From positions 1,054,001-1,118,000 of the forward strand of contig CP166131.1 of assembly GCA_041228345.1 (NCBI GenBank): DNA of 64,000 bases, read 5' to 3'. Under the pieces are notes generated by a model that was not told the origin of the DNA, did not search any database, and worked only from the letters and a program-made list of their open reading frames with translations. This DNA comes from Alphaproteobacteria bacterium LSUCC0396 (GTDB lineage Bacteria; Pseudomonadota; Alphaproteobacteria; Puniceispirillales; Puniceispirillaceae). Positions 16,668 to 34,812 of this stretch are shown in pieces. Position 1 is the stretch's first letter. Every line of letters starts with the position of its first letter. The position numbers and the translations under genes are program-made.

Positions 16668-17345
16668 TCAGATCAATTCATCGCTGCGGTCATCGGTTTC
16701 GCCAAAGCGTTTCAGAACCGCTGGTCGGGTGCCTTCATAGACCTTATCAAGCGATGCCGCGATACGGGCATTTTCACGCTCAAACAGGCTATTGCCGGCA
16801 AGGTCGCTCTCGACAATGAAGGGGCCGAAATTTTCCACCTCAAGAACCCACATGGCCTGCGCAAGCCCAAGTTCCTTTTTCCAGTGAAGATTGCTGACCT
16901 GTTTGACACCGCGGCCCAAAAGCGCGCCCGTTCCATAGCCAACCGTGGTCAGATAAATGGCACCATGCGGCACGAAATGCTCGCGGTAATCCTTGGCGCT
17001 CATTCCGCCTTTACCAATGATCAGCTTGGCCCCGGATGCGGCCAGCCACGGGCCGATCCATTTGGAAAACCGAAAGGATGCGGTTGCTGTTACCGCACCA
17101 AGATCAAAGCTGCCATCATCATGCTGAGTGGCAGCGGGCGAGCAATGAAAATTGGCCGCACTCTCGCCGGGTAACGCCAGCGGCATTGCAACGCCATCTT
17201 CCAGCACGCGTTTATAAACCCCTTCACGCGCGGTATAGACAGTCCCATCAAGATAAACAATATCGCCAATCACCAGACCGGCCAATGCTTCGGCGGTGGG
17301 GTTCGCGCTGAGGCGAATTTTACGCGGTTTGCTCGGCTTTACCAT
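16668..17345 (-). CDS. Class I fumarase/tartrate dehydratase-type hydro-lyase, beta subunit
   Basis: This 225-residue subunit corresponds to the C-terminal domain of class I [4Fe-4S] fumarases (TtdB/FumA-C family). It has the IVYLDGTVYTAREG segment and the KGGMS region typical of the family. The ATG at 17345 overlaps the alpha gene stop (ATGGTAA), so translation is coupled. Together with alpha it should hydrate a trans double bond: fumarate to malate, mesaconate to citramalate, or dehydrate tartrate. The neighbouring succinate-type flavoprotein and C5-CoA enzymes make fumarate or mesaconate the best guesses. Confidence 0.87.
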   Translation of the reverse strand: MVKPSKPRKIRLSANPTAEALAGLVIGDIVYLDGTVYTAREGVYKRVLEDGVAMPLALPGESAANFHCSPAATQHDDGSFDLGAVTATASFRFSKWIGPWLAASGAKLIIGKGGMSAKDYREHFVPHGAIYLTTVGYGTGALLGRGVKQVSNLHWKKELGLAQAMWVLEVENFGPFIVESDLAGNSLFERENARIAASLDKVYEGTRPAVLKRFGETDDRSDELI

Positions 17346-18271
17346 TCGACTGTCTCCCGCCTCTGATAATCGGTAAACCATTCAGGGTCAGTGCGATATT
17401 CAACCCGCCCATCATCAAAAATCCGCGCTACCGCACGGCGCGACGACAAACAAAAGGCATGAACACTCATTTGCATCCCGCCAGTATGGCAATAGCCAAC
17501 CTCGATATTGCAATCAATCACCATTGATTTGCCAACGAACCCCATCGCGCCCATACCGATGTTGTTGCCCAATGTCTTGAACTCATCCTCAAGCGCGGCA
17601 ATTTTCGGATCAGGATTACGGTTGCCAACGACACGCAGACAGGCGGCACGCTTGCCAAGCACCATGCAGCTATCTTTTGAGCCGCCAAGACCAATGCCGA
17701 TAATCGCCGGTTGACAGGCCAGACCGCGCTTGCCAAACGCCACCAGCGAGTCGAGGTAAAACCGCTTGATGCCCTCGATGCCGTCACTTGGAAACAGCAT
17801 CCGGTAATCAGTGCCAAACAGGCCGCCCTTGTGAACAGTAATCAGATCAATCCAATTACCGTTCGGTTCAAACCCATATTCGATTTCCGGCGCCCCAATG
17901 CCGACATTATTATCATGGTCGGTTCGCCATAATGGATGCACCCGGTTTGGCCGCAATGGCACCGATTGTGTTGCGTTTGCGGTCGCACGTCGCAGCGCCG
18001 CCTCAAGCGCGACCGGCCCACCATCAATTTGCGCCTCATTACCCATTTTGACATACCATCGAGGACAGCCAGTATCACCGCACATGGCGCGGCTGTCTTC
18101 TTTTGCGGCTGCGTAATTTTCCAGCATCGCCTCAAGCACAAAACTGGACAGGTCACCATCCTCGTCATTGGCGGCCTGTTGCAAACCGGCAAGGTAATCA
18201 TCGGGAATTTCAATTGCTGCTTTCGCCATCAGGCTTTCAGCGGTTTGTTGAATAAGCTCGATATTGATCAT
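17339..18271 (-). CDS. Class I fumarase/tartrate dehydratase-type hydro-lyase, alpha subunit
   Basis: The 310 residues match the N-terminal Fe-S hydro-lyase domain. VPLRPNRVHPLWRTDHDNN (near 99-117) is the family landmark, and candidate cluster Cys occur in CGDTGC (around 65), GLACQP (around 190) and the C-terminal third. The enzyme contains an oxygen-sensitive [4Fe-4S] cluster. The start overlaps the flavoprotein gene by 4 bases. Class I fumarases that accept mesaconate are known, so the pathway here cannot be settled by sequence. Confidence 0.87.
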   Translation of the reverse strand: MINIELIQQTAESLMAKAAIEIPDDYLAGLQQAANDEDGDLSSFVLEAMLENYAAAKEDSRAMCGDTGCPRWYVKMGNEAQIDGGPVALEAALRRATANATQSVPLRPNRVHPLWRTDHDNNVGIGAPEIEYGFEPNGNWIDLITVHKGGLFGTDYRMLFPSDGIEGIKRFYLDSLVAFGKRGLACQPAIIGIGLGGSKDSCMVLGKRAACLRVVGNRNPDPKIAALEDEFKTLGNNIGMGAMGFVGKSMVIDCNIEVGYCHTGGMQMSVHAFCLSSRRAVARIFDDGRVEYRTDPEWFTDYQRRETVEW

Positions 18272-20025
18272 TGTGCAGCCCCCACCAGCGTTTCGGCCTC
18301 GTCCGCCCCAAGCAGTGACTCGCCCGGCTTGACGATGGTGAATTTCACTGCCTCGCGGGAAACTTCAATGCCCTTATCGCCCGATGTTGCAACAGTGAAA
18401 TAGGATTGGTCAAACGATCCGGCGTCAGGGAAATCTTCGCGGAAATGCGCCCCACGTGAATTCTCGCGCGACAGACCAGCCTTGGCAATCACCTCGGATG
18501 TATCAATCAGGCTTTGCAGACTTAACCAATCATGCCATGATAGGTTAAAGGCCAGATTATCGGCAGCAACGCCAACCGTTTCCATTTCGTCTTTCAAGGC
18601 AGCAATCTTTTTAATGCCGCGCTGAATACCAGCAGCATCGCGCATCACCCCGACATCATCCCACATGATATCCATCAGCTGTGTGCGCAATTCCTGAACA
18701 TTACCCGGTTTCGCCGAGAACGGAATAAGCGCGCGCGCGAGCTCTTCATCAAGAACGGTCTCATCCGGATCATGCAATGCGCCCATTTTCATAGCATCAG
18801 CGCCCATTACATCACCTGCAATACCGCCATAAACAGTAGAATTCGCAACACCATTACCGCCAAGACGATTTGATCCATGCGCTCCGCCAGCATCCTCACC
18901 AGCAACATAAAGGCCGTGAAGGTCTGTGCGGGTATCAACGTCAACAACAACCCCGCCCATCAGATAATGTGCGGTTGGCACCACCTCGACCAAACCGGCA
19001 GCAAGATCAAATCCACTATCGGCGCAGCGCTTGACCATACCTTGGAATTTCTTGGCAACAACGTCCGGCCCAAGATGCGCCATCGAGATATAAACCCCGC
19101 CATAGGGCGAGGTACGACCCTGCCGCATTTCTTCGTAAATAGCGCGGCTGACAATATCGCGTGTGGCGCGTTCGCCCGCATCATCATAATCAAACATAAA
19201 CCGGTTATTCTCGCCATTGATCAGATAGCCACCAGCCCCGCGAAGCCCCTCTTCAAGCACCGTGCCAGTCATTTTTGTTTCGTCACCCGCCATCAGGCCG
19301 GTCGGATGAAACTGCACCATTTCCATATCACGCAGCCTAAGCCCGCGGCGCAATGCCATCGACAATCCGTCCATGCTCTTATCGCCGGATGGGGTGTGAT
19401 ATTTATACATTGTCGGGCCGCCACCGGTTGCCATCAGCACAGTTTTCGCCCGCACTAAACGGAACGTGCCGCGCCGCATATCAATAAACAAAACCCCGGC
19501 AAGCGCGCTGCCATCGCGTGACGGGATCAACCCGATTGCGCGATGTTCCTGCATTTTTTCAACGGGGCGCGACAGCACCTGTTCCATCAGGCGGCCAATA
19601 ATCTCGATACCGGTCAAATCGCCCTTATGGGCGGTGCGGTCAAAGGTCTGTCCGGCAAAGGCCTTTTGATGCAGCGTGCCATCACTGTTGCGGTCGAAAA
19701 AACAGCCGATTTCATTTTCCAGCTCATGAATACGGGTTACTGCCGTGGTGACAAGTCGCCAGGCCATATCCTGATCAGGAAGCCATTTGCCGCCGATGAT
19801 CGTATCCATGAAATGACGCTCGACCGAATCTTGGGGATGTAGCGCCACATTATAGCCGCCCTGCACCATCCGCGTGCAGCCGCATTTGCCGATCAGCCCC
19901 TTCACCGCGATTGTAACTTTTTGATCCGGTGCAGCCTTTTGCGCGTGAAGGGCGGCAAACAGACCCGCCCCACCAGTGCCCAAAATCAGAATATCGGTAT
20001 CATGTCGTTCAATGATTGGTTTCAT
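18268..20025 (-). CDS. Succinate dehydrogenase/fumarate reductase-type flavoprotein without the covalent-FAD histidine
   Basis: The 585 residues start with the FAD motif LILGTGGAGLFAA. The catalytic set is complete: HPTG, GTVLEEGLRGAGG, the Arg of ATRDIVSRAI, the His of PTAHYLMGG and the Arg of GSNRLGGNG. The flavin-linking His of SdhA/FrdA is replaced by Cys50 (GCTRMVQGG in place of SHT-type motifs), so FAD is probably bound non-covalently. In E. coli fumarate reductase, loss of this His keeps fumarate reduction but removes succinate oxidation, so direction or substrate may differ here; methylsuccinate/mesaconate is an alternative. It lies in one operon with Fe-S and anchor subunits and with a class I fumarase. 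Confidence 0.88.
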   Translation of the reverse strand: MKPIIERHDTDILILGTGGAGLFAALHAQKAAPDQKVTIAVKGLIGKCGCTRMVQGGYNVALHPQDSVERHFMDTIIGGKWLPDQDMAWRLVTTAVTRIHELENEIGCFFDRNSDGTLHQKAFAGQTFDRTAHKGDLTGIEIIGRLMEQVLSRPVEKMQEHRAIGLIPSRDGSALAGVLFIDMRRGTFRLVRAKTVLMATGGGPTMYKYHTPSGDKSMDGLSMALRRGLRLRDMEMVQFHPTGLMAGDETKMTGTVLEEGLRGAGGYLINGENNRFMFDYDDAGERATRDIVSRAIYEEMRQGRTSPYGGVYISMAHLGPDVVAKKFQGMVKRCADSGFDLAAGLVEVVPTAHYLMGGVVVDVDTRTDLHGLYVAGEDAGGAHGSNRLGGNGVANSTVYGGIAGDVMGADAMKMGALHDPDETVLDEELARALIPFSAKPGNVQELRTQLMDIMWDDVGVMRDAAGIQRGIKKIAALKDEMETVGVAADNLAFNLSWHDWLSLQSLIDTSEVIAKAGLSRENSRGAHFREDFPDAGSFDQSYFTVATSGDKGIEVSREAVKFTIVKPGESLLGADEAETLVGAAQ

Positions 20026-20029
20026 CAGA

Positions 20030-20371
20030 TTAAATCGCTTTCAAAAAGAATAGTGTCGACACCAGAAAGGCCAGTGCGACGGCCGACGCCGCCATGGTTT
20101 TCTGATGCGGGCTCCATGGCAGAAATTCCAGCGCCATAAGCCGCAGCCCGCCAAAAAGATGGACGGCCAGCAAAAACACCAGCCCAAATTCAGCCAGTTT
20201 AACAATCGTCAAATCGGTAAAACGCAGAAAGCCGTCAAGGCGCACCGGCGCCGACACGGCAAGAGACAACATATAGAAATGAACCGGCAAAAATAGCGCC
20301 AGACTAAGCCCCGATAGCCGGTGCAGCAAAAAGGCAAACCACAGAGGGTGCGATCGGTGCGGCCTTATCAT
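20030..20371 (-). CDS. SdhC-like membrane anchor subunit
   Basis: This 113-residue protein has three predicted membrane helices (about 13-37, 57-80 and 88-111). HRLSG near residue 17 and HLFGG near 71 are the quinone/heme-region motifs of SdhC-type cytochrome b anchors, so a heme b is likely. It overlaps the preceding anchor gene by 4 bases and is followed by the flavoprotein gene after 4 bases. Confidence 0.8.
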   Translation of the reverse strand: MIRPHRSHPLWFAFLLHRLSGLSLALFLPVHFYMLSLAVSAPVRLDGFLRFTDLTIVKLAEFGLVFLLAVHLFGGLRLMALEFLPWSPHQKTMAASAVALAFLVSTLFFLKAI

Positions 20372-20712
20372 AGCCCGCCTCCTGCAAAGGTAACGCTATA
20401 AACCGCCTTGCCGCCAAGCCCCAGCAACGCCGCAAAAACTGCCCAGCTGAAAAGCGTTAGGGCGCGCCCCCTAAGCCCTAGCCATTCAAAGCTGATTACC
20501 CGCACGCCAATGGCCCCATGCACTGACACCGCAACAACAAAACTGCCGTAAAATAAAAACCATGCAACAGAGCCTTGTGTACGGGCCAGAATTTCGGCAA
20601 CCGTCAAGCCGCCCTGAACCGCATAGATCATGACCGCAATATGGCCGATTACTAGTGGCACCATAATCAGCGCGGTTAGACGCTGTGCCATATATAAACG
20701 AATATCCAGCAT
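20368..20712 (-). CDS. SdhD/SdhC-like membrane anchor subunit
   Basis: The 114 residues contain three likely membrane helices, with AQRLTALIMVPLVIGHI at the start of the first and a conserved His in VHGAIGVR in the second. These are the features of the second, smaller anchor of a type with two transmembrane subunits. Its ATG directly follows the TAG of the Fe-S gene. Both anchors keep candidate heme-ligand His residues, so the complex should pass electrons between the Fe-S chain and quinone. Confidence 0.78.
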   Translation of the reverse strand: MLDIRLYMAQRLTALIMVPLVIGHIAVMIYAVQGGLTVAEILARTQGSVAWFLFYGSFVVAVSVHGAIGVRVISFEWLGLRGRALTLFSWAVFAALLGLGGKAVYSVTFAGGGL

Positions 20713-21441
20713 CTAGCGGCTCCGCCGGAACAATGCCTTGGTCGTTTCCCGCTTTAATCCAGCGATCGACAAGGTGGGGTTAAGTTCGTTCGGACAATAT
20801 TGCACACAGCCTTGCTGAGAGTGGCAATTGTGACATCCACCGTTCGAGCCAACCGCCGCCAGCCTTACATCCTGACCGGCATCACGGCTGTCATTCAACA
20901 ACGACCATGACCGGTTCAAGGCTGCCGGACCAAAATAATCGGGGTTCGACTCGACCACATCACACGCCGCATAACAGATCGCACAATTGATACATTCAAT
21001 CGCCTCACTCGCCGCAATGCGCATTGGATCATCGGGCGTAATCGGCGCCATCGGATCGTCCCGGGTGGCACTGGGATGAAACACCGCCTTGGCAGCAACC
21101 CATTTTTCGAAAAACGGATCCATATCGGTTGCCAGATCCTTAATCACTGGTAGGTTCCGCAATGGCGCAACTTCCAATTCATCACCGGCGACAACCTTGC
21201 TGACATGCGTGCGGCAGGTCCAGCGCGGCGCACCATTAACCATCATCGCACATGATCCGCACATCCCAACACGGCAGGCGAACCGGTACGATAAAGTCGG
21301 GTCAATATATTGTTGAACATACGCCACGACATCAAGCACCGTCTGGTTTTCACGCGCCGGCACCTGATATTTCTCAAAGCGGCCATCATCGCCGCTTTCG
21401 CGCCAGATCGACACGGTCATCATTTGCGTTTCATCCGCCAC
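20713..21441 (-). CDS. Succinate dehydrogenase/fumarate reductase-type iron-sulfur subunit
   Basis: This 242-residue subunit has a plant-ferredoxin-like [2Fe-2S] site (C56, C61, C64, C76), then a C-X2-C-X2-C-X3-C set (CINCAICYAAC) and a late CHNC...CVQYCP set for the [4Fe-4S] and [3Fe-4S]/[4Fe-4S] clusters. The start is a GTG with GGAG eight bases upstream; ATGs at 21423 and 21420 are alternatives. It is the first gene of the operon, giving the order Fe-S, anchor, anchor, flavoprotein, fumarase alpha, fumarase beta, unlike canonical sdhCDAB. Confidence 0.88.
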   Translation of the reverse strand: MADETQMMTVSIWRESGDDGRFEKYQVPARENQTVLDVVAYVQQYIDPTLSYRFACRVGMCGSCAMMVNGAPRWTCRTHVSKVVAGDELEVAPLRNLPVIKDLATDMDPFFEKWVAAKAVFHPSATRDDPMAPITPDDPMRIAASEAIECINCAICYAACDVVESNPDYFGPAALNRSWSLLNDSRDAGQDVRLAAVGSNGGCHNCHSQQGCVQYCPNELNPTLSIAGLKRETTKALFRRSR

Positions 21442-21580: not shown

Positions 21581-22468
21581 ATGTCCATCCGCCAGCTCCG
21601 TACATTGCTCGCCATCCAAGATCACGGCTCGTTCAGCGCCGCCGCCGCCGCTTGTCATGTCACCCATGCGGCGGTAAGCCAGCAGATGAAGGCGCTTGAA
21701 ACATTATGGGGTGTCGCGCTGTTCGACCGCAAGGGCCGCCGCCCTGAATTAACCCCGACCGGCCGCGCGCTGGCCGCCAAGGCCGATGAAATCATCCGCG
21801 CTTATGATGGCATCCTTGCATCGGTGATCGGTGATCAGGGGTTTCAGGGCGAATTTGTACTTGGCGCGGTGCCAACAACCCTGACCGGGCTGGTGCCGCT
21901 GGCACTATCGCTGCTGCGCCAGCGCCATGCCGATTTAAGGGTCACGATCTATCCGGGCCTATCACGTCAATTGATGCAACAGCTAGATCGTGGCGCGATT
22001 GATGCGGCGATCATCACCCGCCCGGACTTACTACCGCAAGGGCTGGCCTGCCTTGATATTGCGGCCGAACCGATGCAGCTTTTGGCCCCCCCACAAACCG
22101 ACAGCGGTGATCCGATTGAGCTGTTGCGCACCCGTCCTTTTATCCGGTTTGACCGCAATGCAATTTTTGGTCAGATGGTCGAGGGGTGGCTGCAAAAACA
22201 CAAGATCACTGTCCGAGATTCGATGGAGCTTGAGGGACTGGAGGCAATTTCCAGCATGGTGATGGCTAATCTTGGCGTCTCGATTGTACCGAAACGATGT
22301 GTGCGCAATATGAACCCGTTACCGGTCAAACGCCTTGCCCTTAGCGGCAATCCACCGGCACGCCAGCTTGGCCTTGCCTACCGTGATGGCACGCCGAAAC
22401 TAAGCGTTATCAAGGCTGGCGAAACGGCGCTTCTTGATGCGGTTGCGATTGGCGAATTCTCATCGTAG
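21581..22468 (+). CDS. LysR-family transcriptional regulator
   Basis: The 295 residues have an N-terminal winged HTH (about 1-60, with GSFSAAAAACHVTHAAVSQQ) and a type 2 periplasmic-binding effector domain from about 90. It is divergent from the Fe-S/anchor/flavoprotein/fumarase operon and convergent, 20 bases apart, with the CoA-transferase that ends the C5-CoA cluster. By position it should respond to a dicarboxylate or CoA-ester intermediate and control one or both groups. Confidence 0.9.
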   Translation: MSIRQLRTLLAIQDHGSFSAAAAACHVTHAAVSQQMKALETLWGVALFDRKGRRPELTPTGRALAAKADEIIRAYDGILASVIGDQGFQGEFVLGAVPTTLTGLVPLALSLLRQRHADLRVTIYPGLSRQLMQQLDRGAIDAAIITRPDLLPQGLACLDIAAEPMQLLAPPQTDSGDPIELLRTRPFIRFDRNAIFGQMVEGWLQKHKITVRDSMELEGLEAISSMVMANLGVSIVPKRCVRNMNPLPVKRLALSGNPPARQLGLAYRDGTPKLSVIKAGETALLDAVAIGEFSS

Positions 22469-22488: not shown

Positions 22489-23619
22489 TTAATCGCCAGA
22501 AAATTCAGCGCGGATAGCATCATTATGCTCGCCCAAATCCGGCACCGAACCAAGCGTTGGCAACGCGCCATTTAGAATTGCGCCCGGTGCCAACAGCTTG
22601 ACATCACCAGCTGAGGTACGCACCGCAACAAACCGGTTTTGCGGGTGTTGGGCAAAGACATCCATATCGTTTAACCGGCCAAAGGCAATTTGCGCAGCCT
22701 GTAATTTATCGGCGATCTTGTCGATTGAATATTGGCTGAACACCCCGTTCATGATCGCATCGAGTGCGGCGCGGTTTTGCACCCGATGCACATTACTGTC
22801 AAATTTCGGATCTTGCGGCAGGTCGGGCTGATCAAGGACATCGCTGCAAAGCCGCACCCATTCGCGTTCATTCTGGATCGAAATCAACAGCATTTTTTCA
22901 TCACCGCAACGATAGGCACCATAGGGCGCAATTGTCGGATGATGCAGGCCCGGACGGCGGATTTCCCGCCCGCCATAATGATGCTGCAAATACGGAACAT
23001 TCATCCAATCGGCTAGCGCATGAAACAGCGAAACCTCAATTGCGCGACCCTCGCCGGTAAGACCGCGCGCCACCAGTGCCTGCAAGATTGCGGCATGCGC
23101 CGTCATCCCCGCCGCGATATCACAAACCGACACACCAACCCGTCCGGGCTCTTCAGGCGCACCTGTTATCTGTGCCAGACCCACCTCGGCCTGCACCAGA
23201 AAATCATATGCCTTCATCTGGGCAAACGGGCCAGACGCGCCATAGCCGCTGATATCACAGGTAATCAGCCGCGGATCAGCCGCGCGTAACGCCGCCATGG
23301 AAACCCCAAGACGGTCCAGCGCACCGGGCATTAAATTCTGGATAAACACATCTGCCTTGGTCAGCATGGTTTTGAAAATCTTTACATCGGCGGGCTGTTT
23401 CAGATCGAGTGCAACCGATTCCTTACCGCGATTCAACCAGACGAAATACGAACTATAACCATGCGCGTCAGCATCATAATTGCGGGCAAAATCGCCTTCA
23501 GGGCGCTCGACCTTGATCACCCGCGCCCCAGCATCGGCCAGACGGCTTGCCGCATATGGTGCTGCTACCGCCTGCTCAAGACTGACCACAAGCAACCCTT
23601 CAAGATCACGATTCCCCAT
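22489..23619 (-). CDS. Family III (CaiB/BaiF) CoA-transferase
   Basis: This protein of 376 residues has the family opening LLVVSLEQAVAAPYAASRLADAG, shown here only in part, and the catalytic-Asp segment MKAYDFLVQAEVG near 160. Family III enzymes move CoA between carboxylic acids. In the neighbouring set (CitE-like lyase, mesaconyl-C4-CoA-hydratase-like, MmgE/PrpD) it probably activates mesaconate, itaconate, citramalate or a related C5 acid, or moves CoA between C1 and C4 of mesaconate. It is the last gene of this group; ATG at 23619 follows AGGAGAGG. Confidence 0.88.
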   Translation of the reverse strand: MGNRDLEGLLVVSLEQAVAAPYAASRLADAGARVIKVERPEGDFARNYDADAHGYSSYFVWLNRGKESVALDLKQPADVKIFKTMLTKADVFIQNLMPGALDRLGVSMAALRAADPRLITCDISGYGASGPFAQMKAYDFLVQAEVGLAQITGAPEEPGRVGVSVCDIAAGMTAHAAILQALVARGLTGEGRAIEVSLFHALADWMNVPYLQHHYGGREIRRPGLHHPTIAPYGAYRCGDEKMLLISIQNEREWVRLCSDVLDQPDLPQDPKFDSNVHRVQNRAALDAIMNGVFSQYSIDKIADKLQAAQIAFGRLNDMDVFAQHPQNRFVAVRTSAGDVKLLAPGAILNGALPTLGSVPDLGEHNDAIRAEFSGD

Positions 23620-23675
23620 TTGCCTCTCCTGCCCCTTATGCCGACGTGCATTAACGTAAAATAACCCGAACCAAA

Positions 23676-24491
23676 TTAGGCCAATGCCTCAAAATCACGA
23701 ATAATCGCCTCGGCCCGTTTGATCACCGGCACATCAACCATCGCCCCATCAAGCTGAACCGCAGACGCGCTGGTCGCAACAGCGGCCATCACGCGCCGTG
23801 CCCACTCATAGTCATCCTGACTTGGCCGAAATACCGATTTCGCTGGCGCAATCTGTTTTGGGTGGATCAGCAGCTTGCCACCAAAGCCCATGTCACGGGC
23901 ACGGCGCGCCTCATTTTCAACGATTTCGGCATCATCAAATCGCACCGCAACCCCGTCAAGCGGCGCTGCCTTTTGCCCCAGACGCGAGGCAACAACGATC
24001 TTGCCACGCGCATAATATAACGATTCCCAATGCGGCTCGGCGCCAATATCAAGCGAGAAATCCAGATGACCAAATGCGCATTGCAGCACTGACGGGTGTT
24101 GCATCATCGCCTCAACCGCCGCCAGCCCGATCGCGCTTTCGATGATTGGCACAATCGGCATATCAGCCCCAAGCGTTTTGGCAATCACATCCAGATGATC
24201 CGCAGATTCGGCCTTTGGCAGCATAATCATCTGCGGTGGATTTTTTACCAACGCTTCCATATCCTTTGCAAACCAGCCGCTGTCAAACCCATTACACCGC
24301 ACCACTAGCGGTACCGGCAAATCAGGCCGGTCACCCAGCGCCGCATGGGCGGCTGGCTTGTCGGCATCAGACACCGCATCTTCAAGATCCATGATCACAG
24401 CATCGGCGCCGCTAGCCGCCGCCTTTGACAGTAATGCGGCGCGATGCCCGGGCACAAACAGCGGAACAGATAGAGGTTTTGCTAAAGTCAT
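23676..24491 (-). CDS. CitE-like HpcH/HpaI family lyase (citramalyl/malyl-CoA lyase type)
   Basis: The 271 residues form a TIM barrel with the Mg-binding MDLEDAVSDADK motif near 34-45 and an Arg in VVRCNGFDS for the substrate carboxylate. Members cleave citramalyl-CoA, malyl-CoA or methylmalyl-CoA to acyl-CoA and a keto acid. With the CoA-transferase and hydratase-like genes the simplest role is (S)- or (R)-citramalyl-CoA to acetyl-CoA and pyruvate. The stand-alone length shows it is not part of a citrate lyase complex. Confidence 0.87.
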   Translation of the reverse strand: MTLAKPLSVPLFVPGHRAALLSKAAASGADAVIMDLEDAVSDADKPAAHAALGDRPDLPVPLVVRCNGFDSGWFAKDMEALVKNPPQMIMLPKAESADHLDVIAKTLGADMPIVPIIESAIGLAAVEAMMQHPSVLQCAFGHLDFSLDIGAEPHWESLYYARGKIVVASRLGQKAAPLDGVAVRFDDAEIVENEARRARDMGFGGKLLIHPKQIAPAKSVFRPSQDDYEWARRVMAAVATSASAVQLDGAMVDVPVIKRAEAIIRDFEALA

Positions 24492-24517
24492 AATTTTGTC
24501 TTTCTACTAATTTGCAT

Positions 24518-25330
24518 CTAGGGGGTGACAGTTGCTGTCATGGTTATATTGCCATCAACGCCGCGAACACAGGCCGCCAGTTTCGCATCTTCAGGATTGG
24601 CATCGACCATAATAGGATCACCGCAGACCAGCGGGCGCACCCCGCGATAGGCCATATGTTGCGGCAGCTTTCCATTTACCGTGCAGGCAAGATTAAGCAT
24701 CAGGGTTGCCTGCAAAGGGCCATGAACCAATAGCCCGCCATGCCCCTCGACATTCATCGAATAAGGCAGGTCGTAATGAATACGATGACCGTTGAAAGTC
24801 AGCGCCGAATAGCGGAACAGCATCACACTATTCGCATCAACCTGCCAGCGATGTGCGGCCTTACTATCCGCAATCGGATCCAGCGGCGGTGCGGCCGTTA
24901 CCTCTTCACGGTAAACGACATCATGGCGTTCGCGCAGTTTCAGCTGACCATCAACCGAAAATTCATGCGTCACTGCAACGAAACACAGATTGCCACTTTT
25001 GCCTGATTTAAAGGTGATATCGTCAATGCGGCTTTGCTTGCTGACATGGTCACCAATGCTGAAATCACCGTGAAATTCCAGCCAGCCACCTGCCCACATT
25101 CGCCGCGCATAGGGGATTTCGGGCAGAAAATCGCCGCGTTTTGGGTGGCCGTCAGGCCCCAGCGCATCCGGATCAACCGCGTCAGGGGCCAGACACCAAT
25201 GCATCCCGGGCGGCACCGCGGTACCGGCAAAACAATGCGCTCCCAGCGTATGTTTGAAATGATTAACCATGCGCGGGGTAATCACATCATTGCTTGTTAC
25301 GCTGTTACCAATCCAGTTGGAAAAATCCAT
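24518..25330 (-). CDS. Mesaconyl-C4-CoA hydratase-like protein (FAS1/HTD2-type hot-dog dehydratase)
   Basis: The 270 residues form a double hot-dog. The N half has a RMWAGGWLEF strand. The C half carries the hydratase signature FRYSALTFNGHRIHYD (about 197-212) and GGLLVHGPLQATLM. This branch includes mesaconyl-C4-CoA hydratase of the 3-hydroxypropionate bicycle and itaconyl-CoA hydratase-like enzymes. The ATG at 25330 has AGGAG nine bases upstream. It lies between the lyase and MmgE/PrpD genes, all minus strand. Confidence 0.82.
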   Translation of the reverse strand: MDFSNWIGNSVTSNDVITPRMVNHFKHTLGAHCFAGTAVPPGMHWCLAPDAVDPDALGPDGHPKRGDFLPEIPYARRMWAGGWLEFHGDFSIGDHVSKQSRIDDITFKSGKSGNLCFVAVTHEFSVDGQLKLRERHDVVYREEVTAAPPLDPIADSKAAHRWQVDANSVMLFRYSALTFNGHRIHYDLPYSMNVEGHGGLLVHGPLQATLMLNLACTVNGKLPQHMAYRGVRPLVCGDPIMVDANPEDAKLAACVRGVDGNITMTATVTP

Positions 25331-25398
25331 CAATTTGCTCCTATGCTTTGACCCGCCATATATCCAAAACCAAATTATCGACCAGATAGGATGACCGG

Positions 25399-26727
25399 CT
25401 AGCGTTGTAGTTTGCTGGCCAGATCCGATGCTGAAACACCGCCAAGATTATTCATCATTGCCCATAAATCATGCGCCGCCGCCGTGCCGATTAACGCCGC
25501 GCCCTTAGCCAGTAGCCGCTGCCCCAGAACCGCTGGATCAATTGGTGATAAAAGATCAAACGACTGGCTAGATGTCTTGCCGTCTTTCAGCCGCACCTCA
25601 ACACGCGCCGCACTATCGGCAATGCTGTCATCGCCGACCACCTTGACCCGTTCAGCAAGCGCCATCAGATATGTGTCCTTGCAGGCCGCATCATGATAGC
25701 TTTCATAAGCGGCAAGGTTGATATTTTGCAGCACCATCGCCGCCAGAAAGACATAGCTGAATTTAATTTCAAGGCCGGTTTGCGGTGTCTTTATATCACA
25801 GACATTCTGCCACCGCGGGGTGATATTGACCCGCACCTCGTCAACATCATCGGCGGCAATCTTGCCACCAGCCTGCAACAAAAGCAGTGCCTCGATCATC
25901 GCATGGGTGCCGTGGCAGCAGGCGTGTAACTTGTGACTGACGCTAGCAAAAAAGAATTTATCAAATGACCAATCAGCAATTTTGCCACTGCCAGCATTGT
26001 CGGCGTGATGTGCGGCCAGAAAGCTTTGCGCGCCAGCAAAGGCATCGGTGCTGGCGGTAAAGCCGCGTTTGGCAAGGCTGGCCGCCTCAATCCCGTTTGC
26101 CGCAGCCGCCCCCGCATTAAACGGTTTGCCCATTGTGCCAAATTGTGATTTAAGCCCCGACGCACGGGTGCTAACCAGACCCAGTGCCGCCGACAGCGCA
26201 TCGCGGTCAAGCTGATAAAGCCGCGCCGCGGCGATGGTGGCACCAAAGGCGCCTGACGTTGCGGTCTGATGAAATCCAGCATCATAATGATCACGCCCAA
26301 GAACCATACCAATCCGGCAGGTCGCCTCGGCGCCAAGCAGAAATGCGTCAACCACATCATCGCCCGATGCCCCCATCTCTTCAGCCGCCGCCAATGCCGC
26401 CGGAAAGATTGCCACAGACGGATGACCGATATAGGCAAAATGCGTGTCGTCATAATCAAGGGCGTGCGAGATCGTGCCATTTGCCAGCGCCGCAGCACGC
26501 GCTGGCACGCGCAATTTACTGCCGGTAACGGCGGCCTTGGCAACCCCACCTTCGGCCGCAACAAAATCACGGATGATGCGCGCCAACGGCTGATCAGCGC
26601 CAGCAAGACTGACCACCATCCAGTCGAATAGTGATAATTCTGCCATCTTGCGGGCATCTTGCGGCAGGCGGGCAGGCCCCATTTCGGCAAGGTCAAGAAT
26701 ATGCGGCAGTAGGGCTGAATCGGGCAT
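25399..26727 (-). CDS. MmgE/PrpD family protein
   Basis: The 442 residues match the MmgE/PrpD fold, with the segment HALDYDDTHFAYIGHPSVAI split by the catalytic region (near 88-107). Members include 2-methylcitrate dehydratase and cis-aconitate decarboxylase, which makes itaconate. There is no methylcitrate synthase or lyase here, and the adjacent C5-CoA genes raise the possibility of a cis-aconitate/itaconate or dimethylmaleate-type reaction. The exact reaction cannot be fixed from sequence. It is the first gene of the four-gene minus-strand group. Confidence 0.83.
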   Translation of the reverse strand: MPDSALLPHILDLAEMGPARLPQDARKMAELSLFDWMVVSLAGADQPLARIIRDFVAAEGGVAKAAVTGSKLRVPARAAALANGTISHALDYDDTHFAYIGHPSVAIFPAALAAAEEMGASGDDVVDAFLLGAEATCRIGMVLGRDHYDAGFHQTATSGAFGATIAAARLYQLDRDALSAALGLVSTRASGLKSQFGTMGKPFNAGAAAANGIEAASLAKRGFTASTDAFAGAQSFLAAHHADNAGSGKIADWSFDKFFFASVSHKLHACCHGTHAMIEALLLLQAGGKIAADDVDEVRVNITPRWQNVCDIKTPQTGLEIKFSYVFLAAMVLQNINLAAYESYHDAACKDTYLMALAERVKVVGDDSIADSAARVEVRLKDGKTSSQSFDLLSPIDPAVLGQRLLAKGAALIGTAAAHDLWAMMNNLGGVSASDLASKLQR

Positions 26728-33195: not shown

Positions 33196-34812
33196 ATGCC
33201 ATCAGCTTCTTCTGCTCTTATTCAAACGCTAGCCAATAATGGTGTCGAGGTTATTTTCAGCCTGTCCGGCAACCAGATCATGCCGCTTTATGATGCGTGT
33301 ATTGATGCCGATATTCGCATCATTCATACCCGCCATGAAGGCGCTGCTGTCTATATGGCCGAAGCCTACGCCCAAATCACCGGCAAAATTGGCGTCGCCT
33401 TGGTGACAGCTGGCCCGGGGTTATTAAATGCGGTCTCGGCGCTTTATTCGGCGGCGCGTTCAGAAAGTCCGGTTTTGCTGATTAGTGGGGACGCTGCTGT
33501 GAACATGGACGGGCGGGGCGGCTTTCAAGAACTCGATCAATGTTCGGTTACCGCACCAATCACCAAATATTCAACACGGCCAAATGCGGCGGCCGCGATC
33601 CTGCCCGAATTAGAACGGTGTATTACCGCCGCCCTTGGTGGCAGCCCGGGGCCAGTGCATCTTGCGCTCGCCTTTGATATGTTATCACCAACCACAGATT
33701 TAGAACCGGCTGCGGTAACCGCAATACCCCCTGCATCAGGCGTTAGCCACGATGATCTTGACCATATTATTCGTGCAATTGAGGCGGCGAAATGCCCGCT
33801 TTTCATAACCGGCCCGCAGGCAAATAAAACCCGCCAACCAGCCGTTAATGCCGCGCTTGAGGCGGCGTTGGGACTGCCGGTTATCTGTCTTGAGTCAGCC
33901 CGCGGTCTTTCCGATAGTTTTTACGGCGATCTGACAACCACGCTAAAAGCCGCCGATCTGATCATTCATCTTGGAAAGCTGGCAGATTATTCCACCGGCA
34001 TTCATGCCGGTGGCAGGATTACCGCAGGAACGCCGATTATCTCGATTTTGACCGACGATCAGGCCGCACCAAATCCGGCGCATGACAAAAACCCTATCCA
34101 GCTTATGCGCACTGGCAGCATTCCGGCGGCGATGACCCAGCTTGCCGCCGCAATTACCGATCGTGATATTAATGTAGGCGCCGATCATTGGCCGGCCGCA
34201 ATCAGTGCATCAATTACCCGCCGTCTTGACTGGCAGGCGGACGGCAAAGGCCGGCATCCAGCCGCCCTGACCACGCAGTTACAGGCAGCGATTAACCGCG
34301 CCCCAGCGCCGATTCTAATCGCCGATGGCGGCGAATTTTGCCAATGGGTTCAGGCCGGATGCGTTGCCCCACGCCGCATAATCAATGGCCCATCAGGCGC
34401 AATTGGTGGCGGTATTGCCTATGCGATTGGCGCCGCGATTGCCGCACCGGATGCGCAGATTTTTCTGGTGATGGGCGATGGAACGGCAGGATTTTATCTT
34501 GGCGAGATGCATACAGCCGTGCGCACAAACGCCAATATCACCGCGATCATTGGTAATGACTACCGCTGGAATGCCGAGGTGCAAATCCAGATTGACACCT
34601 ATGGACCGGACCGCGTCTATGGCTGCGAGCTTGATGAAAAAGCCGATTATGCAGCGGCGGCAATCGGCCTTGGCGCCTTTGGCAAAACGGTTGGGCCGGA
34701 CGATGATCTGGACGCCGCCCTTGCCGCCGCCAGCGCGTATCAAGGGCCAGCTTTATTAAATGTGCTAATAGACGGCGTGGCCGCCCCCAAATTTGTGCCC
34801 CTCAAGCTATAG
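33196..34812 (+). CDS. Thiamine-diphosphate-dependent enzyme (acetolactate synthase-like)
   Basis: The 538 residues show three ThDP-enzyme domains. E48 in TRHEGAAVYMAEAYA is the cofactor-activating Glu, and GDGTAGFYLGE leads the GDG-N ThDP/Mg motif (to IIGNDYRWNAE). No FAD-specific feature allows a firm choice between acetolactate synthase, glyoxylate carboligase, benzoylformate decarboxylase-like or a decarboxylase. The divergent sugar-acid dehydratase suggests use on a keto acid of that pathway. No small regulatory subunit lies nearby, which argues against IlvB. Confidence 0.85.
   Translation: MPSASSALIQTLANNGVEVIFSLSGNQIMPLYDACIDADIRIIHTRHEGAAVYMAEAYAQITGKIGVALVTAGPGLLNAVSALYSAARSESPVLLISGDAAVNMDGRGGFQELDQCSVTAPITKYSTRPNAAAAILPELERCITAALGGSPGPVHLALAFDMLSPTTDLEPAAVTAIPPASGVSHDDLDHIIRAIEAAKCPLFITGPQANKTRQPAVNAALEAALGLPVICLESARGLSDSFYGDLTTTLKAADLIIHLGKLADYSTGIHAGGRITAGTPIISILTDDQAAPNPAHDKNPIQLMRTGSIPAAMTQLAAAITDRDINVGADHWPAAISASITRRLDWQADGKGRHPAALTTQLQAAINRAPAPILIADGGEFCQWVQAGCVAPRRIINGPSGAIGGGIAYAIGAAIAAPDAQIFLVMGDGTAGFYLGEMHTAVRTNANITAIIGNDYRWNAEVQIQIDTYGPDRVYGCELDEKADYAAAAIGLGAFGKTVGPDDDLDAALAAASAYQGPALLNVLIDGVAAPKFVPLKL

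Follow-up and report, generated by a model that had tools for sequence, protein, structure and literature searches.

We analyzed a six-gene operon in a 64,000-nucleotide stretch of the genome of Alphaproteobacteria bacterium LSUCC0396 (contig CP166131.1, positions 1,054,001 to 1,118,000), hereafter called the window; the genome (G000) consists of one contig, C1, of 2,592,803 bases. The operon (16668-21441) encodes, in this order and on the same strand, an iron-sulfur (Fe-S) subunit, two membrane anchors, a flavoprotein related to SdhA of succinate dehydrogenase (SDH) and FrdA of fumarate reductase, and the alpha and beta subunits of a hydratase resembling class I fumarases, while a LysR-type regulator is divergent from its first gene (Table 1). 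This agrees with an earlier note on this DNA, made from the sequence alone, which had placed a separate Fe-S subunit, two anchors and a class I fumarase in the operon of the flavoprotein. The translation of the flavoprotein open reading frame (ORF) includes GLIGKCGCTRMVQGGYN. Consistent with the complex II superfamily, this protein carries the FAD_binding_2 and Succ_DH_flav_C domains and is encoded alongside Fe-S and anchor subunits. The Fe-S subunit contains 12 cysteines in three groups of four, one above the usual 11 ligands.

Table 1. The operon and its divergent regulator in the window, with the number of related loci, out of 100, that contain each core gene
Gene product	Position	Strand	Domains, scores and motifs	Related loci
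Class I fumarase-like hydratase, beta	16668..17381	-	PF05683 above cut-off; TIGR00723 under (113.6 vs 145.15 bits); TATASFRF for GPTTxxRM	88/100
Class I fumarase-like hydratase, alpha	17339..18271	-	TIGR00722 above cut-off (205.4 vs 100.65 bits); CGDTG for CQDTG	95/100
Flavoprotein subunit (SdhA-like), 585 aa, ATG start	18268..20025	-	PF00890 and PF02910; Cys50, Lys134, Glu258	100/100
Membrane anchor, cytochrome b556 (SdhC) type	20030..20371	-	PF01127 above cut-off; TIGR02970 slightly under (50.9 vs 52.3)	98/100
Membrane anchor, SdhD type	20368..20712	-	PF01127 above cut-off; TIGR02968 under (26.5 vs 41.8)	95/100
Iron-sulfur subunit (SdhB-like)	20713..21441	-	TIGR00384 above cut-off (189 vs 88); PF13085	94/100
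LysR-type regulator, divergent from the Fe-S subunit gene	21581..22468	+		

When the flavoprotein was aligned with FrdA and SdhA of E. coli, Cys50 fell at the position of the flavin-binding histidine of these proteins, as the earlier note had stated. Its further statement that the catalytic His, Glu and Arg residues are all kept holds for the six positions concerned (H240, E259, R262, R289, H353 and R387), but it had missed that the substrate-contacting threonine is replaced by Glu258. To follow these positions across relatives we aligned 147 distinct full-length members, gathered by a motif that left position 50 free and fixed T51, R52, M53, Q55, G56 and G57; invariance at these six fixed positions is thus uninformative, while E258 and the other signature residues are unaffected. 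Cys50 was invariant in all 147 members, with histidine in 20/20 canonical SdhA proteins, and the positions of FrdA H232, E245, R248, R287, H355 and R390 were each conserved in 147/147. Glu258, at the position of FrdA T244, was likewise found in every member, with threonine there in the 20 canonical SdhA proteins and in SdhA, FrdA and NadB of E. coli. The full signature was C50, H133, K134 (Arg in one member), E258 and G392, against H, A, A, T and S in all 20 canonical SdhA proteins; NadB shares the histidine at position 133. Cys48 was variable (116 Cys, 29 Ser, 2 Thr), and Gln55 matches SDH and NadB, with glutamate at this position in E. coli FrdA. The sequence GCTRMVQGG was present in 11/11 plasmid loci and in 64 of 65 loci retrieved through similarity over the whole protein; the exception (L050) lacks the N-terminus. 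A chance loss of the histidine in a single genome is ruled out by this clade-wide distribution of Cys50. An AlphaFold model of the flavoprotein (mean pLDDT 74.9) fell below 50 in the active-site loops 44-65, 116-138, 239-250 and 383-391 and was not used. According to PMC5773532, FrdA T244 hydrogen-bonds and twists the dicarboxylate, and the loss of its equivalent therefore argues against plain succinate as the substrate.

A phylogeny of the flavoprotein subunit, which the earlier note had put forward as a check, recovered the relatives as a single clade (support 100/100; stem length 3.06 changes per column), distinct from E. coli SdhA, FrdA and NadB as well as from canonical SdhA of the same class (43 rows; NadB and FrdA form long branches). 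The window's own copy (L021) and L034 were dropped from this tree, and the window is represented by L030 (84% identical), which grouped with Roseovarius nubinhibens, Paracoccus and Bradyrhizobium. At E <= 1e-100 the clade was detected in 32/61 genomes of the window's family, 36/387 genomes of its class and 11/348 genomes of a phylum sample. Eighteen plasmid records match as well, including those of Cupriavidus, Pseudomonas, Rhodococcus jostii RHA1 and two haloarchaea; nine annotated plasmid records call the products 'FAD-binding protein' and, where present, 'fumarate hydratase'. Among the matches listed, the best named one was 'uncultured SAR116 cluster alpha proteobacterium' (91% identity). 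One record titled Oceanobacillus (L146, WNWL01000001.1) contains an operon 73% identical to that of the window; it may be an assembly of alphaproteobacterial origin that was mislabelled or mixed.

The hydratase is altered throughout the clade as well. The window protein has neither of the class I fumarase motifs CQDTG and GPTTxxRM, whose residues contact the substrate in these enzymes; E. coli fumarase A and tartrate dehydratase retain the standard motifs. Among 127 ORFs matching CxDTG, 108 have CGDTG, 10 CADTG and 7 CQDTG, with 2 that are probably unrelated, and TATASFRF stands for GPTTxxRM in at least 104 of 113 FumB rows. In seven loci (L089, L091, L096, L182, L185, L245 and L255) a second, distant FumA (32-35% identity) that keeps CQDTG replaces the usual alpha subunit.

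The genome also encodes a housekeeping SDH elsewhere. A canonical sdhCDAB with SHTVAAQGG lies at about 1403.4-1406.8 kb of C1 in the same genome, which excludes the flavoprotein complex as the only SDH of this organism, and canonical SdhA was also found in 20/20 clade-bearing genomes examined; the earlier suggestion of a complex separate from the housekeeping SDH is thereby supported. A third FAD_binding_2 protein (L003, G000:C1:804441-808748) adjoins an Fe-S/membrane protein and a regulator, an arrangement reminiscent of the tricarballylate dehydrogenase TcuAB.

Given the conserved operon structure, we compared the gene neighbourhoods of 100 related loci, comprising the best 80 matches of one scan and 20 loci of the class sample; some contigs are short, close relatives of the window are over-represented, and the hydratase always accompanies the SDH-like complex here since the loci were fetched that way. 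Marker matches were BLAST best hits of stop-to-stop ORFs at E <= 1e-12 covering at least half of the query. All six core genes were present in 81/100 loci and in 63 of the 68 loci of at least 19 kb. The most frequent neighbours were LysR (54, with the window's LysR as the best marker match), TauE/SafE (49), TctC (32), TctA (30), a thiamine pyrophosphate (TPP) enzyme (26) and a nitroreductase (17), followed by a YeiH-type exporter (5), CoA-transferase (4), CitE (3), SuyA (3), SuyB (3) and PrpD (1). Within the 68 long loci, TauE was found in 40 and any listed sulfonate marker in 44, a count that includes doubtful SorA matches; SorA-named matches at 29-33% identity (10/100 loci) are probably other molybdopterin enzymes and were unused as evidence. 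TauE occurred in 36/51 long loci from genome_contigs versus 4/17 from the class sample, so that the association with TauE is at its strongest close to the subclade of the window.

Several loci contain tighter sulfonate gene clusters. L089 and L096 carry, on one strand, SuyA-SuyB-SdhB-anchors-TauE-solute-binding protein-FumA/B-like-SdhA-(TPP-like in L096)-SlcC-ComC. Plasmids of Methylobacterium radiotolerans and M. oryzae resemble these gene sets, with a UxaA pair, hydroxyacid and Ldh-family dehydrogenases, and TauE. A Sulfitobacter plasmid locus has TauE, TctCBA, LysR and TPP genes, Paracoccus and Pseudorhizobium plasmid loci have YeiH, NIPSNAP and TauE, and a Pseudomonas plasmid locus has a methylmalonate-semialdehyde dehydrogenase (MMSDH), TauE, a YeiH-type exporter and a sulfite oxidase. 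In Methylobacterium nodulans, a SorA above the curated cut-off (695.9 bits, cut-off 600) lies about 5.6 kb from the operon, together with soxC. No sulfonate marker was matched in the Rhodococcus locus (L245). On Haloarcula and Natribaculum plasmids, the Cys-bearing flavoprotein occurs with a UxaA/SuyAB-like pair and TauE, and no fumarase was found in the stretch. In these haloarchaeal plasmids a gene annotated argH (argininosuccinate lyase) adjoins the flavoprotein (L183, 8284-9786; L246, 8218-9720), and it is possibly a non-homologous sulfoacrylate hydratase.

The association with sulfonate genes extends to whole genomes. Among the 387 class genomes, the clade was present in 36, SuyB in 36, Xsc in 51 and PaaA, a non-sulfonate catabolic control, in 52, with absence defined by E-value limits of 1e-120 for SuyB, 1e-180 for Xsc and 1e-100 for the clade. 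In tests that treat genomes as independent, the clade and SuyB occurred together in 21 genomes versus 3.35 expected (odds ratio 31, p 6.8e-16), and the clade and Xsc in 17 versus 4.7 expected (p 1e-7). SuyB or Xsc was found in 29/36 clade genomes. At the family level, the clade was present in 20 families and SuyB in 23, with both in one genome in 13. SuyB-like genes adjoin Xsc in two small genomes (G234 and G309), which supports the SuyB name. In the window's own genome, Xsc (C1:1774237-1775967) and ComE (C1:615403-615942) are above their curated cut-offs, so the route from sulfopyruvate to sulfoacetaldehyde looks open there; a 165-aa ORF immediately upstream of ComE fits ComD by place and length only. 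Genes for downstream desulfonation of sulfolactate are thus found in the host genome.

A compound that suits these observations appears in recent literature. As described in PMC11489063, Enterococcus gilvus forms 3-sulfopropionate as a product when it breaks down dihydroxypropanesulfonate, and degradation of 3-sulfopropionate itself was considered unreported in 2024, one thesis excepted; in that thesis, as cited there, R. nubinhibens ISM uses homotaurine via 3-sulfopropionate, sulfoacrylate and sulfolactate. The available portion of that account names no genes or enzymes of the R. nubinhibens pathway, a 2026 review still describes the mechanism of 3-sulfopropionate degradation in Bilophila as unclear (PMC12890257), and we found no gene-level report of the degradation in the accessible parts of the open-licence literature searched. 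The genome record of R. nubinhibens ISM contains two PF02910 proteins, one canonical (SHTVAAQGG) and one of the Cys50 clade, whose gene is flanked by TauE, LysR and Tct genes (L122).

Based on these data, we consider it probable that the operon encodes a 3-sulfopropionate dehydrogenase and a sulfoacrylate hydratase. The six genes would specify a membrane-bound, quinone-linked complex II paralogue with a dedicated hydratase. The complex, with the flavoprotein as its predicted catalytic subunit, may dehydrogenate 3-sulfopropionate, which is succinate with one carboxylate replaced by a sulfonate, to 3-sulfoacrylate by SDH-type chemistry and pass the electrons via its Fe-S clusters to ubiquinone. 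The fumarase-like pair, a predicted sulfoacrylate hydratase, would then form 3-sulfolactate. In many relatives the sulfolactate would be desulfonated by SuyAB, which splits (R)-sulfolactate into pyruvate and sulfite (PMC12330013). In organisms like that of the window, it may instead pass through sulfopyruvate (ComDE) and sulfoacetaldehyde (Xsc), with the sulfite then presumably exported or oxidised. We infer the substrate, direction, product and quinone acceptor from what the computations show: the homology, the order of the genes, the residue changes shared across the clade, the phylogeny, and a link to sulfonate genes seen both locally and across genomes.

Several observations weigh against this assignment. 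The window has no TauE and its adjacent genes are not sulfonate genes, TauE is common in the genome (10 matches), and SuyB was not found there at E <= 1e-120. The unit of genes encoding a CoA-transferase III, a RipC/CitE-like lyase, a FAS1-DH-type hydratase and an MmgE/PrpD protein (22489-26727, minus strand, convergent with LysR), together with an acyl-CoA carboxylase, adjoins the operon in the window and in the same-genus loci L094 and L233-L236, which have long flanks. SuyAB adjoins the operon in 3/100 loci, and sulfonate genes lie near a minority of the diverse loci. In 20 class-sample genomes scored for TauE, YeiH, SuyAB, SlcC, ComC, SorA and SoxC, a marker was found by the clade operon in 5/20 (TauE 4, SuyAB 2; the count includes doubtful SorA matches) compared with 1/20 by the canonical SDH locus (a 40% SlcC-like match; TauE, YeiH, SuyAB and SorA 0), a modest contrast. 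The SuyAB name rests on a UxaA-family pair and its context, and no curated model names SuyAB. Genome-wide, 7/36 clade genomes have neither SuyB nor Xsc, and the tests above assume an independence that related genomes do not have. The PaaA control was itself associated with the clade (11 genomes versus 4.8 expected, odds ratio 3.3, p 0.004), so lifestyle explains part of the SuyB signal; stratified by PaaA, the SuyB odds ratio was 25. Furthermore, the change of T244 to glutamate is not in itself a reason to expect binding of an anionic sulfonate, and a non-covalent FAD, if present, would make dehydrogenation harder through its low potential.

The state of the flavin bears on this last point. 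The earlier note had stated that in E. coli Frd the change of the covalent-FAD histidine to cysteine removes succinate oxidation and keeps fumarate reduction, which agrees with the complex II variants described in PMC5773532, where the covalent bond is also reported to raise the flavin potential from -145 to -55 mV. We infer two possible states: the FAD could be non-covalent, as favoured by the E. coli His-mutant result, or it could be joined to Cys50 by a cysteinyl bond, as favoured by the invariance of the cysteine and the likely oxidative role. A covalent bond that restores the raised potential would explain why cysteine, and no other residue seen, occupies position 50. The 8-alpha-S-cysteinyl FAD linkage is found in monoamine oxidase and is not known from complex II. 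We advance only tentatively, as somewhat doubtful, the idea of a 3-sulfopropionate:quinone oxidoreductase subfamily in Alpha-, Beta- and Gammaproteobacteria, Rhodococcus and haloarchaea with its FAD bound in this way to Cys50.

Among other substrates, a different sulfonated or bulkier analogue of succinate would share the same sulfonate context. Sulfosuccinate, for example, could be oxidised to sulfofumarate and hydrated at the sulfonate carbon; the resulting bisulfite adduct would be unstable and break down to sulfite and a 2-oxo acid. The substrates of Tct transporters are often multi-acids, and an MMSDH gene (TIGR01722 above cut-off) adjoining the hydratase genes of Pseudomonas sp. MPC6 would suit a semialdehyde product. 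However, SuyAB, SlcC and ComC in the tightest clusters indicate a sulfolactate product, which 3-sulfopropionate gives directly, and sulfosuccinate is not mentioned in the literature found by searches for the compound; we regard this alternative as unlikely. The MPC6 gene itself (L181, 13409-14899) encodes a CoA-acylating enzyme and lies directly against the hydratase beta gene, a hint that some lineages may form malonate semialdehyde.

The earlier note had also considered methylsuccinate and mesaconate. In such a pathway, methylsuccinate would be converted via mesaconate to citramalate, from which a CoA-transferase and a CitE-like lyase would yield acetyl-CoA and pyruvate. Mesaconate is among the substrates that class I fumarases can accept, and the window's CoA-transferase (a 176-bit match to succinyl-CoA:mesaconate CoA-transferase, cut-off 700), lyase, hydratase and PrpD genes adjoin the operon; the unit resembles one for citramalate or itaconate metabolism, and the same set lies beside the operon in L094, L097 and L233-L236, all of SAR116 type. 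Nevertheless, CoA-transferase and CitE were found in 4/100 and 3/100 loci, and CoA-transferase was matched in none of the other 12 same-family loci viewed, several of which are short, so that within the family loci viewed the unit adjoins the operon in the window's genus only. The operon is divergent from LysR and the CoA-transferase set convergent with it, an arrangement that suggests two separate units, and loci of another genus of the family (g2, L221-L224) have TauE beside the operon and no CoA-transferase match in the stretches read. Where CoA-transferase and hydratase genes recur (L089 and L096), they come after the SuyAB/SlcC/ComC cluster. Nothing naming such an enzyme was found in the accessible parts of the literature linking methylsuccinate or mesaconate with SDH. 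The note's idea of an alternative dicarboxylate-like substrate pointed the right way; these two compounds themselves appear quite improbable.

The TPP enzyme encoded near the operon in 26/100 loci, for example in L177 (5404-7005), resembles acetolactate synthase but exceeded the cut-off of none of the 25 families listed of 51; it could decarboxylate sulfopyruvate or another 2-oxo acid. A related TPP enzyme is encoded in the window (33196-34812, plus strand), about 12 kb from the operon.

The proposal that the complex reduces fumarate, as a quinol:fumarate reductase with non-covalent FAD, has lost ground and is very unlikely. Complex II variants lacking the covalent ligand do reduce fumarate and cannot oxidise succinate (PMC5773532), and the best-scoring curated family of the flavoprotein is the thiol:fumarate reductase TfrA (NF004900; 487.5 bits, cut-off 718). 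However, the threonine that twists the substrate is replaced by glutamate, Gln55 is as in SDH rather than E. coli FrdA, a catabolic direction is the likelier one given the hydratase encoded in the same run of genes, and the distribution is linked to sulfonates. Finally, a merely divergent backup SDH and fumarase, compatible with the six retained catalytic positions, is barely credible in view of the canonical SdhA in all 20 clade genomes tested and the clade-wide pocket changes in both enzymes.

If the assignment to 3-sulfopropionate is correct, the six genes would be those for an aerobic route of its degradation, in which the SDH and fumarase pair of the tricarboxylic acid cycle is reused for a sulfonate isostere. 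They would serve as markers of organosulfur cycling in the sea, with a step that can be tested in cultures of R. nubinhibens ISM or Sulfitobacter, and would offer a natural case in which to study the tuning of the complex II flavin when the histidyl bond is missing.

In comparison with known systems, the complex shares with SdhCDAB and FrdABCD the four-subunit layout, with FAD and Fe-S subunits, two small anchors and the catalytic His, Glu and Arg residues. It differs in having cysteine for the FAD-linking histidine, glutamate for the substrate threonine and lysine for alanine at position 134, and in its gene order of Fe-S subunit, anchors, flavoprotein and then hydratase; the flavoprotein scored 412.2 bits against TIGR01812 (SDH/fumarate reductase flavoprotein), below the curated cut-off of 567.3. 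It likewise stays under the cut-off for TfrA, and TfrAB is not known to have membrane anchors, whereas the window complex has two. L-aspartate oxidase NadB (TIGR00551; 351.5 versus a cut-off of 452.75 bits) is a homologous flavoprotein that also lacks the histidine (Ser in E. coli); it keeps the threonine and works without Fe-S and anchor partners. The hydratase resembles two-subunit class I fumarase and L-tartrate dehydratase in its family domains, the CxDTG motif and the retained arginine and lysine of the beta-subunit motifs, and is unlike them in that the clade has mostly lost the glutamine of CQDTG and the GPTT loop has become TATA. The predicted intermediates are the same as those of 3-sulfopropionate degradation in R. 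nubinhibens ISM, as cited in PMC11489063, and that organism carries the operon. Taken together, this comparison of sequences suggests a complex II subfamily that is functionally a new variant, its likeliest role being that of a 3-sulfopropionate dehydrogenase paired with a dedicated hydratase.

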